DNA of 36,615 nt from Dehalococcoidia bacterium (GTDB taxonomy: Bacteria; Chloroflexota; Dehalococcoidia; SZUA-161; SpSt-899): positions 1-36,615 of the forward strand of contig JALPYG010000004.1 of NCBI GenBank assembly GCA_023271215.1. The letters are read 5' to 3'. The notes beneath the pieces were generated by a model. That model searched no databases. It was not told where the DNA came from and was given only the letters and a program-made list of their open reading frames with translations. Each line of letters starts with the position of its first letter. The first letter of the stretch is position 1. Below are positions 632-36,615 of this stretch, piece by piece. The translations under genes were made by a program, and so were the position numbers.

Positions 632-911
632 TTTAGAGATTTGAATGTGTGGCAAAAAAGGCAAGGAATTGGCTGTTCAAATTTATGGGATTACCCAAAA
701 GGAACCATTTAACCGAGATTATGGTTTTAAAGATCAAATCTTTTATATGGCAAAGGGATCGCTAGCCGAGCTTCAAACCCAGCTAGAAATAGCATGTGCT
801 ATAGGGTATCTGGATGAGCAACTGATGAAGGAGTTGGAAGGAAAATGCCAGATTGTTGGCAAGATGCTGGGCAGTTTGATAAAGGCGCGGTCGTATATAA
901 AGGCCGAATGA
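623..911 (+). pseudogene. Four-helix-bundle protein (S23/IVP family), frameshifted, core deleted
   Basis: MGGFRDLNVWQK then frame change at an A6 run into KGKELAVQIYGITQKEPFNRDYGFKDQI-FYMAKGSLAELQTQLEIACAIGYL; the RRAAxSIPSNIAEG core is absent. Confidence 0.75.
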
Positions 912-1150
912 AAGCAATTATTCTAGCTGCCGGATATGCCAGACGGCTGTGGCCTCTGACCAGGCACATCCCCAAGGCATTGTTGCCTATCGCCGGCAAG
1001 CCGATCATTGACTTCATAATAGAAGAGATGATCAAAGTTAGGATTCTCCCCCTGATAAGCTTGTCTTCGATGGAGCCTGGTACGATATCGGCTCTTTTGA
1101 GTCATACGACCAGGCCAACGAGGATTATAAGGGCAGGACGTAGTCTTGAA
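908..1150 (+). pseudogene. NDP-sugar nucleotidyltransferase remnant (5' end joined out of frame to 3' end)
   Basis: [41 protein letters not shown], then in another frame [30 protein letters not shown]. Confidence 0.75.
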
Positions 1151-1196
1151 AGTCCAGCATCTGGCTTATAGCATATTGGCAGAGGAGGATTAAGCC

Positions 1197-1781
1197 ATGT
1201 GGGAAGCAGAAATTGCTCCGGTTGCCGAGCTTTACCCACCGCAAGGACAATGGACTGAGAGAGATTATTTTACTCTCCCCGATACTAACCGCTATATAGA
1301 GTTATCTGAAGGGGGACTTGTTATGCCACCACATCCTACAGACCGTCATCAAGCTGCTATTCTGGAGCTGGCAGTCAGGCTGAGGACATTTGTTCTGGAC
1401 AGAAATCTAGGTTTAGTGCGTATTGCTCCTCTTCCGGTGCGGCTTTGGCCGGGGAAGATACGAGAGCCCGACATTTTCTTCCTCTCAAAGGAGCATGCTG
1501 ATAGAGCCGGGGAGAAAGTCTATGGAGTCCCTGATTTAGTGATAGAGGTACTCTCACCGGGCACGGAGCAAGTAGACCGGGGCGAAAAATATTTCGAATA
1601 CGCCAGAGCCGGGGTGAGAGAATACTGGATGGTTGACCCTGATGAGCAAACGATTGAGGTGTACATCCTGCGCGGGAACGTGTATCAACTTAGAGAAAGA
1701 TTTAAGGCTGGTGAGTTAGTCCGCTCTGAGCTTTTGTCCGGATTTGAGACGAATGTGAGCGAGGTATTTCAGTTAAGATAG
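1197..1781 (+). CDS. Uma2 family endonuclease (DUF820)
   Basis: 194 aa ORF: IRIAPLPVRLWPGKIREPDIFFL..GVPDLVIEVLSPGTEQVDRGEKYFEYARAGVREYWMVDP. Confidence 0.88.
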   Translation: MWEAEIAPVAELYPPQGQWTERDYFTLPDTNRYIELSEGGLVMPPHPTDRHQAAILELAVRLRTFVLDRNLGLVRIAPLPVRLWPGKIREPDIFFLSKEHADRAGEKVYGVPDLVIEVLSPGTEQVDRGEKYFEYARAGVREYWMVDPDEQTIEVYILRGNVYQLRERFKAGELVRSELLSGFETNVSEVFQLR

Positions 1782-4056: not shown

Positions 4057-4087
4057 AAAGGCTAAAGGTTGAGTAATGAGTAATGAG
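4057..4087 (+). repeat. Heptamer array AAAGGCT-AAAGGTT-GAGTAAT-GAGTAAT
   Basis: 7-nt spacing. Confidence 0.7.
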
Positions 4088-4130
4088 AAGAGCAGCAGTT
4101 TCTATTCCTTCAAATATTGCGGAAGGAGCA
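4083..4130 (+). pseudogene. Core fragment of a four-helix-bundle (S23/IVP) gene
   Basis: ATG-initiated MRRAAVSIPSNIAEGA between two heptamer arrays. Confidence 0.8.
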
Positions 4131-4135
4131 GGTTT

Positions 4136-4208
4136 AGCGTGTAGCGCATAGCGTATAGACTGAAGACCGAAGGCTAAAGGCTGAACCTTGAACCGTGAAC
4201 CTTGAACC
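4136..4208 (+). repeat. Heptamer array, ten in-phase units with changing sequence
   Basis: AGCGTGT AGCGCAT AGCGTAT AGACTGA AGACCGA AGGCTAA AGGCTGA ACCTTGA ACCGTGA ACCTTGA. Confidence 0.85.
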
Positions 4209-6184: not shown

Positions 6185-6264
6185 CAATCACCAATCACAC
6201 GTCACGGGAAGGGCTAAAGGCTGAATCTTGAACCTTCAACCTTGAACCTTGAACCTTGAACCCA
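6185..6264 (+). repeat. Heptamer array, eleven in-phase units
   Basis: CAATCAC CAATCAC ACGTCAC GGGAAGG GCTAAAG GCTGAAT CTTGAAC CTTCAAC CTTGAAC CTTGAAC CTTGAAC. Confidence 0.9.
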
Positions 6265-6338: not shown

Positions 6339-6380
6339 GGCAAGGGCGAAGGGTTAAATAACCAATCACCAATCACCAAA
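6339..6380 (+). repeat. Heptamer array GGCAAGG-GCGAAGG-GTTAAAT-AACCAAT-CACCAAT-CACCAAA
   Basis: 7-nt spacing; lies between an rmlA-like 5' fragment and an rmlA-like 3' fragment. Confidence 0.7.
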
Positions 6381-7346: not shown

Positions 7347-7402
7347 GACTACCTACTACACGCTACACGCTACATGCTTGATGGGTGATGAGTGATGAGT
7401 TG
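7347..7402 (+). repeat. Heptamer array, eight units
   Basis: GACTACC TACTACA CGCTACA CGCTACA TGCTTGA TGGGTGA TGAGTGA TGAGTTG. Confidence 0.85.
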
Positions 7403-8983: not shown

Positions 8984-9062
8984 ATAACAAATTGCCGGCG
9001 GGGGTCAGGTTGGAAGGGTATGGATAGAATCCCTTGAACCTGAGCAGTTACAAACAAATAAC

Positions 9063-9090
9063 CAATCACCAATCACACGTCACACGAAGC
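9063..9090 (+). repeat. Heptamer array CAATCAC-CAATCAC-ACGTCAC-ACGAAGC
   Basis: 7-nt spacing; same units as 6185-6205. Confidence 0.7.
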
Positions 9091-9628: not shown

Positions 9629-9670
9629 GGTGAATGGTAACTGGTAACTAGTGAATGGTAACTGGTAAAT
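9629..9670 (+). repeat. Heptamer array GGTGAAT-GGTAACT-GGTAACT-AGTGAAT-GGTAACT-GGTAAAT
   Basis: Six exact 7-nt units; last unit supplies the AT of the ATG at 9669. Confidence 0.9.
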
Positions 9671-9875
9671 GACAATAAGGACTCACAAGGATTTGGAGGT
9701 GTGGAAAGAAGCGGTGAAGCTTTCCGTTATCTGCTACGATACGACAAAAGGCTTCCCACGGGAGGAGCAGTTTGGACTAGTATCTCAGATGCGTCGAGCA
9801 GCAATTTCCATAGCCGGCAATATTGCCGAGGGGGCTGCTCGTGCAGGCAATAAAGAGTTTATTCAATTCCTATAA
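9669..9875 (+). pseudogene. Four-helix-bundle protein (S23/IVP family), 3'-truncated
   Basis: MTIRTHKDLEVWKEAVKLSVICYDTTKGFPREEQFGLVSQMRRAAISIAGNIAEGAARAGNKEFIQFL*. Confidence 0.85.
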
Positions 9876-9877
9876 TG

Positions 9878-9967
9878 ACCAATCACCAATCACCAAAAGG
9901 CGCTAAAGCTTTTCATCGGCGATGATGCCAGGGTAGAATGTCGTAATGCAAGACCTGACCCCTATGC
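9878..9967 (+). repeat. 90-bp dispersed repeat, copy 2 (includes heptamers AATCACC)
   Basis: See 6361-6450. Confidence 0.9.
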
Positions 9968-11956: not shown

Positions 11957-12031
11957 TTAGTGAGCGATATATTGTCGGTTCTGAGGCCACCTGGCGAATG
12001 GGTAAAGGCCTCACAAATGATGTTATCTGGC

Positions 12032-13099
12032 ATGAAGGCACTTATTCTTTGTGGCGGCAGGGGCACGAGGCTAAAACCCCTCACCAATACTATAGCAAAA
12101 CAGCTTCTCCCTGTCGCCAATAAGCCGATTCTGTTCTACGTCCTGGACCAGATTAGAGAAGCTGGTCTAACAGACATTGGCATCATTATCTCGCCGGAGA
12201 CGGGACACTGGATAAAGGAAGCAGTGGGTGAAGGTTTAAAATGGGATACTCAGATCACCTATATCCTTCAAGCCGAGCCCCTGGGACTCGCCCATGCCGT
12301 CAAAACTGCCCGCGACTTCCTCAGCGATTCCCCTTTCTTAATGTTCCTGGGCGATAACCTCATTGAAGGCGGCATTAAGGGGTTTGTTGAGGAATTCAAC
12401 AGCTTTCATCCCGATGCCCTTATCCTGCTGAAGGAAGTCCCCGACCCCCGTCTTTTCGGGGTGGCTGAACTCGATGGCTCGGGCAGGGTGACGCACCTGG
12501 TGGAGAAACCCAAGGAGCCAAAGAGCAACCTGGCTTTAGTAGGCATTTACCTTTTTACCCCTGAGATCCATCAAGCCATCGCTCAAATAAAGCCTTCCTG
12601 GCGGGGAGAACTGGAGATAACCGATGCCATACAGAAGCTCTTGGAAATGGGGAGGGAAGTTAGAAGCCGTATTCTTAAAGGCTGGTGGCTTGACACCGGG
12701 AAGAAGGACGACCTCCTTGAGGCAAACCGAGTTGTCCTTGATGATTACCTGAAGCGAGATATTAAGGGCGAAGTGGATTCTCAAAATCAGATCGTTGGCA
12801 GGGTGGAAGTCAGGCGAGGGACGAAGGTAGAAAGCAGTATCATAAGAGGGCCGGCATCCATCGCTGAAGATTGCCGAATTAGTAACTCATTCATCGGCCC
12901 TTTCACCAGCATTGGAGCTGGGACGATAATTGAGGGCTCATCAATAGAACATTCGGTAATACTGGAGAACTGCCACATCTCAAAAATCGAGCGTGTGGCT
13001 GATAGTGTTATCGGCAGAGGCACTGAGGTGGTCAAAGGAGAGCAAAACTTCAAAGCGGTAAGGCTTTTCATCGGCGACGATGCTAGAGTAGAATTATAG
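12032..13099 (+). CDS. rmlA: Glucose-1-phosphate thymidylyltransferase, long form
   Basis: [45 protein letters not shown].. with C-terminal left-handed beta-helix-like repeats. Confidence 0.88.
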
Positions 13100-13634: not shown

Positions 13635-14326
13635 ATGATGAAGATTCTAGTAACCGGCGGGGCCGGGTTTATTGGGAGCAACTTTGTCTGTTACCTATTG
13701 CGTGAGCACCCCGATTGGGAAGTAACCAACCTGGACAAGCTCACCTATGCCGGGAACTTAGAGAATCTGGGGGATGTCGAAGGTAACCCTGGATATCACT
13801 TCGTCAAAGGCGATATTACCGAGAGGGAACTTGTTGATAAGCTGTTGGGTCAGGGCTTTGACGTAGTAGTTAACTTCGCTGCTGAATCCCACGTAGATCG
13901 AAGCATCCTGGATTCTTCGCTCTTCATAAAGACCAATGTGCAAGGAACACAGGTGCTTCTTGAAGGGGCAAGACAGCATAAGATAAAGCTATTCCTTCAG
14001 GTATCCACCGACGAAGTCTACGGATCACTAGGAGCGCCAGGTAAGTTTACCGAAGAATCACCTCTTTTGCCCAACAGCCCCTATGCTGCCAGCAAGGCAG
14101 CCGCCGATTGTTTATGTCGGGCGTATTATCATACCTACGGTTTGCCGGTCGTTATTACTCGCTGCTCCAATAATTATGGACCCTTCCAGTTTGGAGTCCG
14201 GGCATCCTCCTTGGGGAGGGACTCAGGGAAACCGTCCAGTGGTATATGGAAAATCAGTCCTGGTGGCGGCGAGTTAAGAGCGGGGAATACGTTGAGTATT
14301 ATGAGAGGATGTACTCCCAAAGATGA
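13635..14326 (+). pseudogene. rmlB: dTDP-glucose 4,6-dehydratase, middle deleted
   Basis: N-terminus KILVTGGAGFIGSNFVCYLL..NNYGPFQF; C-terminus EGLRETVQWYMENQSWWRRVKSGEYVEYYERMYSQR* in a different frame. Confidence 0.88.
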
Positions 14327-14339
14327 AGGGCAACCGTTT

Positions 14340-14434
14340 ACCGCAGAGAGCACCGAGACCGCTGAGATGAATCAAAATTTGATCGAGACCAAAACAACAG
14401 CGATTCCCTCTGCGTTCTTTGCGTGCTCTGCGGT
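14340..14434. repeat. Inverted pair of 9-nt arrays
   Basis: ACCGCAGAG-AGCACCGAG-ACCGCTGAG (14340-14366) and CTCTGCGTT-CTTTGCGTG-CTCTGCGGT (14408-14434) in opposite orientation, with palindrome atcaaaatttgat between. Confidence 0.8.
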
Positions 14435-15302
14435 GAAGATCTTAGTTACCGGTGCCAATGGTCAACTTGGAACCGATCTTTGTGGGGTTTTGCCAAATAT
14501 TGAGGTTATCCCGCTTGCTCATGCCGACCTTGAAATTACCGATATGAAGTCGGTAAAAACTGCTTTCATCAAGCACCGGCCGGATGTGGTCATTAATACC
14601 GCAGCTTACGTCAGGGTGGATGACTGTGAATCTAATCAGAATAAAGCTTTTTTAATAAATGCCTTAGGCGCCAGAAATGTGGCTGTGGCAGCCCAGGAGT
14701 TAGGGGCAAAACTGGTTCACATTAGCACCGATTACGTTTTTGGAGGAGAAAGCAAGCCCCGCACCGCTCCTTACAGCGAGTTCGACTTCCCCATTCCCCC
14801 AAACGTCTATGGCAAATCAAAGCTGGCAGGCGAAAACCTGGTTCGCCATCTCTGCATCAGGCATTTCATTATTAGAAGCTCCGGACTCTTTGGCGTTGCC
14901 GGCGCTAGCGGAAAAGGAGGAAACTTTGTGGAGACCATGCTGAGGCTGGCTAAGGAGAGGGAGGAGCTAAAGGTGGTGAACGACCAGGTCTTCTCCCCCA
15001 CTTATACCAAGGACTTAGCAGAGAAGATAGCCCAGCTTATCCATACGGAATACTACGGGATATTTCACATCACCAATAAAGGCTCTTGTTCCTGGTATGA
15101 GTTCAGTAAGGAGATATTAAACCTAGCAGGAATAAGAACCCCTGTCATTCCCATAACCTCAGACCAGTATCCCCAAAAAGCCAGAAGACCTCACTACTCG
15201 GTGCTGGATAACTATCACCTTAGACTTCTAGGAATGGACGACATGAAGCCCTGGCAAGAAGCACTTAAAGATTATATGACAGAAAGGGGGCATTTGGAGT
15301 GA
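14433..15302 (+). CDS. rmlD: dTDP-4-dehydrorhamnose reductase (GTG start in the array; in frame with upstream rmlB remnant)
   Basis: KILVTGANGQLGTDLCGVLPN..ADLEITD..DYVFGGESKPRTAPYSEFD..PNVYGKSKLAGE. Confidence 0.9.
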   Translation: MKILVTGANGQLGTDLCGVLPNIEVIPLAHADLEITDMKSVKTAFIKHRPDVVINTAAYVRVDDCESNQNKAFLINALGARNVAVAAQELGAKLVHISTDYVFGGESKPRTAPYSEFDFPIPPNVYGKSKLAGENLVRHLCIRHFIIRSSGLFGVAGASGKGGNFVETMLRLAKEREELKVVNDQVFSPTYTKDLAEKIAQLIHTEYYGIFHITNKGSCSWYEFSKEILNLAGIRTPVIPITSDQYPQKARRPHYSVLDNYHLRLLGMDDMKPWQEALKDYMTERGHLE

Positions 15303-15346
15303 GAGATTCATAGAGATTGATAGAGATGGGTAGAGATTGATGGAGA
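15303..15346 (+). repeat. 10-nt array GAGATTCATA-GAGATTGATA-GAGATGGGTA-GAGATTGATG
   Basis: Exact 10-nt spacing between the rmlD stop and the four-helix start. Confidence 0.85.
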
Positions 15347-15888
15347 CTTACAAAGGTCACAATAGAGCACCTGGCTCGTTCGAAGACCTTGAAGTTTGGC
15401 AGATGAGCAAGGAGATAGTTAAACAGGTCTACAAACTGGCAAAGGATTTTCCAAAGGAAGAGTCTTTCGGGCTGGTAGCTCAAATTAAGCGGGCTGCTTT
15501 ATCTATTCCAGCCAATATTGCTGAAGGCTTTGGCCGCTATCATTATCTTGATAAGGCTAAATTTTACCTTAATGCCCGAGGATCTCTTTACGAAGTAAAG
15601 AGCCACCTTCTTATCGCGCAAGAGCTGGGGTATCTGAAGGTAGAGAGTCATAGAGATTCAGTAGGGATTGATAGAGATAGGGTAGAGACTGGTAGAGATA
15701 CAGTGGAGATTGATGGAGAAAAATCTCAATGTGTCTCAACTTATCCCCATAAATCTCAACCTATCTCAACCAATCTCCATAAAACTCAACCTATCTCCAG
15801 GAACATCTTCTCCCTCATAGACACCCTGAGTGTTAAGCTTAATAATCTCATCACTGCGACCAGGAAACGAAGCAAGGAGCCTCGATGA
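15340..15888 (+). CDS. Four-helix-bundle protein (S23/IVP family) with repeat-encoded insertion
   Basis: FEDLEVWQMSKEIVKQVYKLAKDFPKEESFGLVAQIKRAALSIPANIAEGFGRYHYLDKAKFYLNARGSLYEVKSHLLIAQELGYL, then ~50 aa repeat-encoded insert, then helix-4-like SLIDTLSVKLNNLITATRKR. Confidence 0.85.
   Translation: METYKGHNRAPGSFEDLEVWQMSKEIVKQVYKLAKDFPKEESFGLVAQIKRAALSIPANIAEGFGRYHYLDKAKFYLNARGSLYEVKSHLLIAQELGYLKVESHRDSVGIDRDRVETGRDTVEIDGEKSQCVSTYPHKSQPISTNLHKTQPISRNIFSLIDTLSVKLNNLITATRKRSKEPR
15643..15720 (+). repeat. 10/11-nt array (21-nt period) within the CDS
   Basis: gagagtcata gagattcagta gggattgata gagatagggta gagactggta gagatacagtg gagattgatg; encodes ESHRDSV-GIDRDRV-ETGRDTV-EIDGEKS. Confidence 0.85.
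15722..15799 (-). repeat. 10-nt array in opposite orientation within the CDS
   Basis: Reverse complement reads GAGATAGGTT-GAGTTTTATG-GAGATTGGTT-GAGATAGGTT-GAGATTTATG. Confidence 0.85.
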
Positions 15889-15962
15889 ATCTCTCAATCT
15901 CAATCTATCTCCATATGTCTCAACAAATCTCAACCTATCCCAACGTATCTCCACCTATATCA
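15885..15962 (-). repeat. 10-nt array in opposite orientation downstream of the four-helix gene
   Basis: Reverse complement reads GAGATACGTT-GGGATAGGTT-GAGATTTGTT-GAGACATATG-GAGATAGATT-GAGATTGAGA. Confidence 0.85.
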
Positions 15963-15973
15963 AGGAGGCACAA

Positions 15974-23118: not shown

Positions 23119-23664
23119 ATGAAGGCACTTATCCTTTGCGGCGATTCCCCTTTCTTAATGTTCCTCGGCGATAACCTCATTGAAGGCGGCATTAAGGGGT
23201 TTGTTGAGGAATTCAACAGCTTTCATCCCGATGCTCTTATTTTGCTTAAGGAAGTCCCCGACCCTCGTCTTTTCGGTGTGGCTGAACTCGATGCCTCAGG
23301 CAGAGTGATGCACCTGGTGGAGAAGCCTAAGGAGCCAAAAAGCAACCTAGCTTTAGTAGGCATTTACCTTTTTACCCCTGAGATCCATCAAGCCATAGCT
23401 CAAATAAAGCCTTCCTGGCGGGGAGAACTGGAAATAACCGATGCCATACAGAAGCTCCCATCCCCCTTTACCAGCATTGGAGCCAATACGGTGATTGAGA
23501 ATTCATCAATCGAGCATTCGGTGATACTGGAGAGCTCGCACATCTTGAAAATCGAGCGTCTGGCTGATAGTGTTATCGGTAGGGGCACTGAGGTGGTCAA
23601 AGGGGGGCAGAACTTCAAGGCAGTAAGACTTTTCATTGGCGACGATGCTAGAGTAGAACTGTGA
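23119..23664 (+). pseudogene. Second rmlA copy with two in-frame internal deletions (181 aa open frame)
   Basis: [64 protein letters not shown] compared with 12032-13099. Confidence 0.9.
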
Positions 23665-35655: not shown

Positions 35656-36277
35656 TATCTCGGTGCCGTTGCATTCAGATATGCCGATCTGGCCAGGAAG
35701 CGTTGGTTTGCAGATCAGCCGCACTCAAAGTCTGGAGAGCGGCGATGAGGCTAATGTCTCCCGGCTTGACTGTGATGTCCACATAGGCACTCATGTGGAC
35801 GCACCGTTGCATTTCATTGAGGGCGGAGTCAGCGTCGACCAGTTGCCGCTAGAGGTCTTGTGTGGTCCGGCGGCAGTGGCAGACCTGACCGGGGCGGACA
35901 GTATTACGGCAGACGATTTGGCAGCGTTGTCGTTGCCGGAGAACACGACACGGCTCTTATTGAAAACGCCCAACTCCACATTATGGCAAAGGCAACAAAG
36001 CTTTGACGCCAATTATGCGGCGTTAACGGCTGATGCTGCCAGGTGGATTGTCGAGCGCGGCATTCGCTTGGTTGGAATTGACTATCTCTCTGTGGAAGGG
36101 CATTATGATGGTTGTGAAGTCCATCGGATTCTACTGGAGGCTGAGGTGGTTATTATCGAAGGGCTCAACCTGATAGGTGTAGTCGCTGCGCACTATGAGT
36201 TGCTCTGTTTGCCGTTGAAGCTGGTGGGAGCGGAAGGCGCGCCGGCGAGGGCGGTGTTGGTGGGGAGTGAGGAGTGA
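35639..36277 (+). CDS. Cyclase family protein (kynurenine-formamidase-like)
   Basis: IIDISVPLHSDMPIWPGSVGLQISR..SRLDCDVHIGTHVDAPLHFIEGGVSVDQLPLEVLCG. Confidence 0.9.
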   Translation: MPKIIDISVPLHSDMPIWPGSVGLQISRTQSLESGDEANVSRLDCDVHIGTHVDAPLHFIEGGVSVDQLPLEVLCGPAAVADLTGADSITADDLAALSLPENTTRLLLKTPNSTLWQRQQSFDANYAALTADAARWIVERGIRLVGIDYLSVEGHYDGCEVHRILLEAEVVIIEGLNLIGVVAAHYELLCLPLKLVGAEGAPARAVLVGSEE

Positions 36278-36303
36278 GGAGTGAGTGGTGAGGAGTAGGG
36301 ATG
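36262..36303 (+). repeat. Heptamer array GGGGAGT-GAGGAGT-GAGGAGT-GAGTGGT-GAGGAGT-AGGGATG
   Basis: 7-nt spacing; contains stop of cyclase gene (36275-36277) and ATG of next gene (36301). Confidence 0.9.
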
Positions 36304-36615
36304 GAGAAGCCACATAAGAAACTGGACATATGGAAAAAGAGCGTTGACTTTGTCACTGAGGTGTACAAGGTGACAGCAGACTTTCCGTCTGATGAACGGT
36401 ATGGTCTTGTTTCGCAGATGCGTCGTGCCGCTATTTCAATACCGAGCAACCTGGCTGATGGAGCAGCCCGGGGAACCAATGAATTGATACAGTTTGTGCG
36501 TATCGCCATTGGTTCCGCAAGTGAACTGGACACACAGTTAGAAATCGCTTGTCGTCTCGGTCATTTACCCGATGAAGTGTATCGCTCCCTCGACATGGAA
36601 CTTGCCCAAATAGAC
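36301..36615 (+). CDS. Four-helix-bundle protein (S23/IVP family), runs off window
   Basis: MEKPHKKLDIWKKSVDFVTEVYKVTADFPSDERYGLVSQMRRAAISIPSNLADGAARGTNELIQFVRIAIGSASELDTQLEIACRLGHL. Confidence 0.93.
   Translation, partial: MEKPHKKLDIWKKSVDFVTEVYKVTADFPSDERYGLVSQMRRAAISIPSNLADGAARGTNELIQFVRIAIGSASELDTQLEIACRLGHLPDEVYRSLDMELAQID

Follow-up and report, generated by a model that had tools for sequence, protein, structure and literature searches.

An open reading frame encoding a 23S rRNA intervening-sequence protein (IVP, also S23p) in a Dehalococcoidia genome is part of a real and unusual nested structure, in which one pair of inverted decamer arrays flanks the gene and a second pair lies within its coding sequence without breaking the frame. 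A single repeat family has most likely contributed two generations of elements to the nest, one around an intervening-sequence-type gene and one inside it. Specifically, we favour, with a probability of roughly 0.7, a MITE-like palindrome residing inside an intervening-sequence-type element that has the same ends. A general result outweighs this single locus: IVP genes associate with inverted short-repeat arrays, and the association is well supported statistically.

The stretch of DNA analysed here (36,615 nt, hereafter the window) contains four arrays of related decamers (Table 1). Sequence reading and TRF both recovered the predicted order of +,+,-,-, with the arrays flanking and invading the gene. 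These arrays are well beyond chance, as the maximum TRF score in 20 dinucleotide-preserving shuffles of the 36.6-kb window was 51, compared with 57-113 for the real arrays. The original prediction had described a symmetric double inverted repeat whose first array precedes the start codon. The nesting is present, but the symmetry is not strict, with outer arms of ~45 and ~75 nt; likewise, the first array exists but does not lie wholly upstream, as the ATG at 15340 falls within its final decamer. At the other end of the gene, the stop codon (15886-15888) adjoins the outer right array.

Table 1 Repeat arrays and IVP genes in the window
Feature	Coordinates	Strand	Description
Outer left array	15302..15347	+	4.5 decamers AGAGATTGAT-like, 10-nt spacing; TRF 15302-15346, period 10, score 62
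IVP (S23p) gene, four-helix bundle	15340..15888	+	PF05635, TIGR02436, 2GSC
Inner left arm, in CDS	15639..15720	+	TRF 15639-15719, period 21/42, scores 83/113
Inner right arm, in CDS	15721..15799	-	10-nt units; TRF 15721-15797, period 30, score 105
Outer right array	15889..15963	-	~7 decamers; TRF 15897-15963, period 10, score 57
Second, truncated IVP element	9630..9900 (IVP match 9687-9875)	+	Heptamer arrays, GGTAACT-like before and AATCACC-like after
Third IVP gene	36255..36615 (IVP match 36316-36612)	+	GTGAGGA heptamer array upstream, ~5 units; contig end cuts gene

Units are spaced by 10,10,10,10 nt in the outer left arm and by 10,11,10,11,10,11,10 nt in the inner left arm. The latter alternation, confirmed by both spacing and TRF, yields the anticipated 21-nt period, equal to seven codons, and the arm encodes a 7-residue period (ESHRDSV/GIDRDRV/ETGRDTV) that is open solely in the frame of the IVP gene. 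In the folding check proposed with the original prediction, the inner arm pair gave an RNA hairpin of -48 kcal/mol (z -3.0), and the full 676 nt as RNA, in which the outer arms pair across the gene, reached z -4.5. Folded as single-stranded DNA, the inner pair was mildly better than shuffles (z -1.6). Complementary ends forming a stem around an ORF, as in intervening sequences (IVSs), are found here in the predicted RNA fold; the flank complementarity is z 5.7.

The interrupted gene, of 182 codons from the ATG (a mechanically called ORF begins at TTG 15337), belongs to the IVP family on the basis of matches to PF05635 (E = 2.2e-33; 115.1 bits, cut-off 33.8), TIGR02436 (E = 2e-29; 102 bits, cut-off 24) and the structure 2GSC (E = 4.6e-20). 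PF05635 is familiar chiefly through rRNA intervening sequences and, to our knowledge, is a large protein family with no function assigned. An AlphaFold2 model built with 53 sequences (pTM 0.67) has four helices, at residues 19-35, 46-66, 70-96 and 147-179, and places the repeat-coded residues 97-146 in a loose loop that connects helix 3 to helix 4 (pLDDT about 50-65). The predicted fold thus retains an intact bundle, and the insert comprises about 49-50 residues, in agreement with the claim that the internal pair adds some 50 residues to a four-helix-bundle gene while preserving its frame. Columns corresponding to the loop are nearly empty in all other sequences of the IVP protein alignment; no non-repetitive sequence of equal length, which the original prediction had named as contrary to it, occupies this position. 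The loop is probably tolerated, and we propose no functional role for it.

Foldseek searches with the model returned 2GSC (E = 3e-6) and 2RLD (TM(target) up to 0.85), both of the same family, followed more weakly by chains of 8UBE and 4DWL (Avd of diversity-generating retroelements). The nearest homologue lacking the interruption (L025) was also aligned pairwise with a BLOSUM matrix, but the long gap misplaced helix 4, and we relied on the model and Foldseek instead. Searching the genome contigs with the window protein alone retrieved one relative only.

PF05635 matches number ten in the 1.58-Mb source assembly, several of them truncated, and by inspection nearly all adjoin short tandem arrays that face in opposite orientations on the two sides and have a unit specific to the locus. 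We compared 200-nt upstream flanks with the reverse complement of downstream flanks at 98 IVP loci from the order and phylum, using 165 other ORFs of the same loci as controls. A match at z>3 was found at 71 of the 98 IVP loci, 27 failing the test, and at 5 of the 165 controls (Fisher p = 4e-35), figures that come from a modest control set and phylogenetically non-independent IVP loci, and from a test that misses arrays starting inside the ORF. Of 196 flanks, 109 had their best lag at 7 nt, and a best lag of 10 nt occurred at the window's locus only. Arms reached a match score of >=14 in 70% of comparisons within the same locus, 5% across loci and 17% in direct orientation. The outer arrays of the window locus are a local, decamer variant of the ends common around IVP genes.

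Similar arrangements were seen elsewhere. Half of the six IVP loci in a Parcubacteria genome gave z>5. Among IVP genes on cyanobacterial plasmids, the array pattern is visible by inspection and 2 of 10 passed the flank test, a low rate because several right arrays begin inside the ORF and because the arrays of PCC 7120 and HK-01 are non-inverted. The Nostoc PCC 7120 plasmid copies have direct-orientation arrays beside an ISL3-type transposase gene. On three Nostoc plasmid loci (L165, L166 and L169), the IVP gene and its heptamer arrays adjoin the terminal part of a transposase gene in a common segment that is 84-87% identical, with differing outer flanks; the PCC 7120 copies were uninformative as a guide to element borders, as their common segment contains the transposase gene end. 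A genus relative (G012) carries an IVP gene with heptamer arms within its 23S rRNA gene, which ties the IVP-array loci to classical intervening sequences.

These data bear on an alternative that we consider unlikely, namely that a nucleoid or regulatory protein (IHF/HU-like) binds the arrays and that the IVP gene is incidental. Paired opposite-strand arrays of 7-8-nt tandem repeats in Geobacter metallireducens were proposed to be global-regulator (IHF/HU) sites (PMC2700814), and spacings of 10 and 10.5 nt would fit the helical repeat of DNA. However, the flank test shows that IVP genes specifically are enclosed, the unit varies among loci yet matches within a locus, whereas binding by a regulator should call for a common sequence, and one copy is the 23S rRNA insertion just described.

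A mobile-element reading of the whole family is more tentative than that of the nested locus, and we place it somewhat short of even odds. IVP/S23p genes would be widespread small mobile elements that occur in several phyla, for the most part away from rRNA, with locus-specific inverted 7-10-nt arrays as ends that the protein maintains or moves; gene-less palindromes would be their non-autonomous derivatives, and the rRNA IVS merely the first site to be noticed. A quantitative link to inverted arrays outside rRNA would assign PF05635 a role in a mobile element that can be put to the test, and would account for part of the heptamer arrays seen in many bacterial genomes.

The density of IVP sequences is high locally: besides the nested gene, the 36.6-kb contig contains four further copies or remnants, comprising the two listed in Table 1 and others at 744-872 and 4068-4136. 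Short heptamer arrays (TGAACCT, AATCACC, CTACACG and TGATGAG) also occur at 4182-4208, 6222-6262, 6357-6379, 7356-7400 and 9057-9076. Some heptamer arrays in the window have no recognizable IVP gene and are possibly remnants of IVP elements.

Relatives of the inner palindrome that contain no gene occupy seven further sites, mostly intergenic, distributed over five genomes of the genus (G000 and G011-G014), and none were detected elsewhere in the order. They are short, palindromic and dispersed, as MITEs are, and have a common core with asymmetric spacing (11/10 nt on the left, 10 nt on the right). The copy on G000:C35 and the inner stretch of the window share 85% identity across 78 nt. Such copies weigh against the idea that the inner palindrome was never inserted and instead arose in situ, with the outer array slipping and being duplicated in inverted form. 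Polymerase foldback can generate inverted duplications, and the inner and outer arms do have a common unit, but the recurrence of the same core and the same asymmetry at other sites, together with the close match in G000, makes growth in place quite improbable.

With the gene omitted, the outer arms align to the inner palindrome at z 28.6; alignments to the remaining palindromes reach z 8-20. Low-complexity repeats of this kind inflate such scores. Alignment to the gene-less copies is expected if those copies arose from the gene-bearing element by deletion, and we infer from these sequence comparisons that the gene-less palindromes are internal-deletion forms of that element. Their arms would then play the part of MITE ends, being common to the palindromes and the outer IVP element, a putatively autonomous one.

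Insertion into coding sequence was seen in three cases only, all in frame and in unrelated genes: the IVP gene, a family-2 glycosyltransferase gene of G013 (L070, G013:C39) and a MobA-like gene of G011. The glycosyltransferase is the one gene besides IVP with an interior palindrome, which supplies 26 residues missing from the G015 ortholog; in the MobA-like gene, the palindrome provides the final codons at the 3' end. The glycosyltransferase gene also has a frameshift ~90 residues downstream of the palindrome, reflecting either assembly error or decay. The same frame is open in 8 of 9 palindromes and is the frame used by the host genes. Selection against out-of-frame insertions suffices to explain this common frame, and a built-in frame preference is unnecessary. 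In an Rfam scan, the hairpin matched nothing relevant, the sole hits being plant microRNA models below threshold. The locus would offer a case outside Rickettsia in which palindromic DNA is translated in frame into new segments of protein.

Comparison of sites among related genomes is compatible with mobility. The nested element lies between rfbD-like and rfbC-like genes rather than in an rRNA gene. In the genus relative G014, the rfbD-rfbC gap is ~20 nt and holds no element, and in G013 and G011 other genes occupy the junction. Small ORFs at that junction in G013 and G011 (L055, about 980-1500; L057, about 730-1500, reverse strand) resemble a HicA/HicB-type pair, and the junction resembles an insertion hot spot. 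G013 and G014 have a near-identical counterpart of the 9630 element downstream of rfbC, where the window has no element; the two genomes differ by 14 nt in the array of this counterpart. Flanks of the empty site in G014 are strongly diverged, too much so for a target duplication to be read. Among the compared genomes, we observed no transposition event, target duplication or mobilizing enzyme. A Y1 transposase was not found as a partner in the source assembly (68% complete), and its single reverse-transcriptase fragment is group II intron-like by eye and unlinked to the arrays. Presence and absence across species thus fit movement without proving it, and deletion or recombination between arrays could also produce them. 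Upstream of the element, what looks like a deletion fusion has produced a 555-codon ORF (13635-15302), in which an unrelated stretch connects the front of an rfbB-like gene with rfbD, and a nucleotidyltransferase gene (11960-13099) has a shortened near-copy at 23119-23664 on the same contig.

Phase variation is a further alternative, in which the inner array, by gaining or losing 10- or 11-nt units, would shift the frame and toggle the IVP gene. The tandem units in the coding sequence are not divisible by three, one orthologous heptamer array differs between species by the 14 nt noted above, and Coxiella strains differ in array length (PMC4990558). We nevertheless regard this reading as very unlikely: the many substitutions among units lower slippage, the 21-nt double unit keeps the frame, no length variants of the inner array were seen, and the palindromic insert is also present at unrelated sites. 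An assembly or binning artefact that joined the repeats is barely credible, for although the source assembly is a draft of 150 contigs, the 182-codon frame is open through the arrays with an intact predicted fold, and homologous hairpins occur independently in other genomes, as does an in-frame insert of analogous kind.

We return to the two nested layers as the best account of the locus. The outer layer (about 15302-15963) would be an intervening-sequence-type element, with its IVP gene set tightly between inverted arrays, that entered the rfbD-rfbC junction. The inner layer (about 15639-15799) would be a gene-less, MITE-like palindrome with the same decamer arms that came to lie in the loop joining helix 3 to helix 4, where it was probably tolerated given that its length and open frame left the host gene readable. 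Both the outer element and the palindromes would be able to move, and the IVP protein may act on the arms as either DNA or RNA. RNase III cuts stems in 23S rRNA, and by analogy it may cut the array stems as well.

Several known systems resemble one or other layer of the nest. Bacterial MITEs and REPINs are likewise small non-autonomous palindromes with ends resembling those of a larger gene-bearing element of the same genome, whereas for the window palindrome we identified neither a transposase nor a RAYT partner and found no target duplication. Avd of diversity-generating retroelements has a related four-helix-bundle fold, matched weakly by Foldseek, and the resemblance of PF05635 to Avd has been noted previously (PMC10053308); no reverse transcriptase, template repeat or variable repeat of such a retroelement was seen beside the window IVP gene. 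Classes 1-3 of the G. metallireducens repeats are paired opposite-strand 7-8-nt arrays in multiple copies that were read as regulator sites, and the portion of that report available makes no link to IVP genes (PMC2700814).

For the inner layer, the best analogue appears to be the Rickettsia palindromic elements (RPEs), a likeness drawn by analogy. RPEs are palindromic, dispersed in one genus, and found both between genes and in frame within unrelated genes, as summarized in PMC10969869. The window palindrome differs in that its arms are decamer tandem repeats that are common to an IVP-gene element, and in its few copies.

For the outer layer, the closest relatives are the IVSs of 23S rRNA with an S23p/IVP ORF in Leptospira, Coxiella and others, which have the same protein family and a gene between complementary, stem-forming ends. 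In Coxiella, polymorphic heptamer repeats lie immediately upstream of the S23p ORF (PMC4990558). The window copy differs from these IVSs in lying between protein-coding genes, in its decamer ends and longer arrays, and in the second palindrome within its gene. A search of open-access journal papers yielded no account of inverted heptamer arrays around IVP genes that lie outside rRNA.
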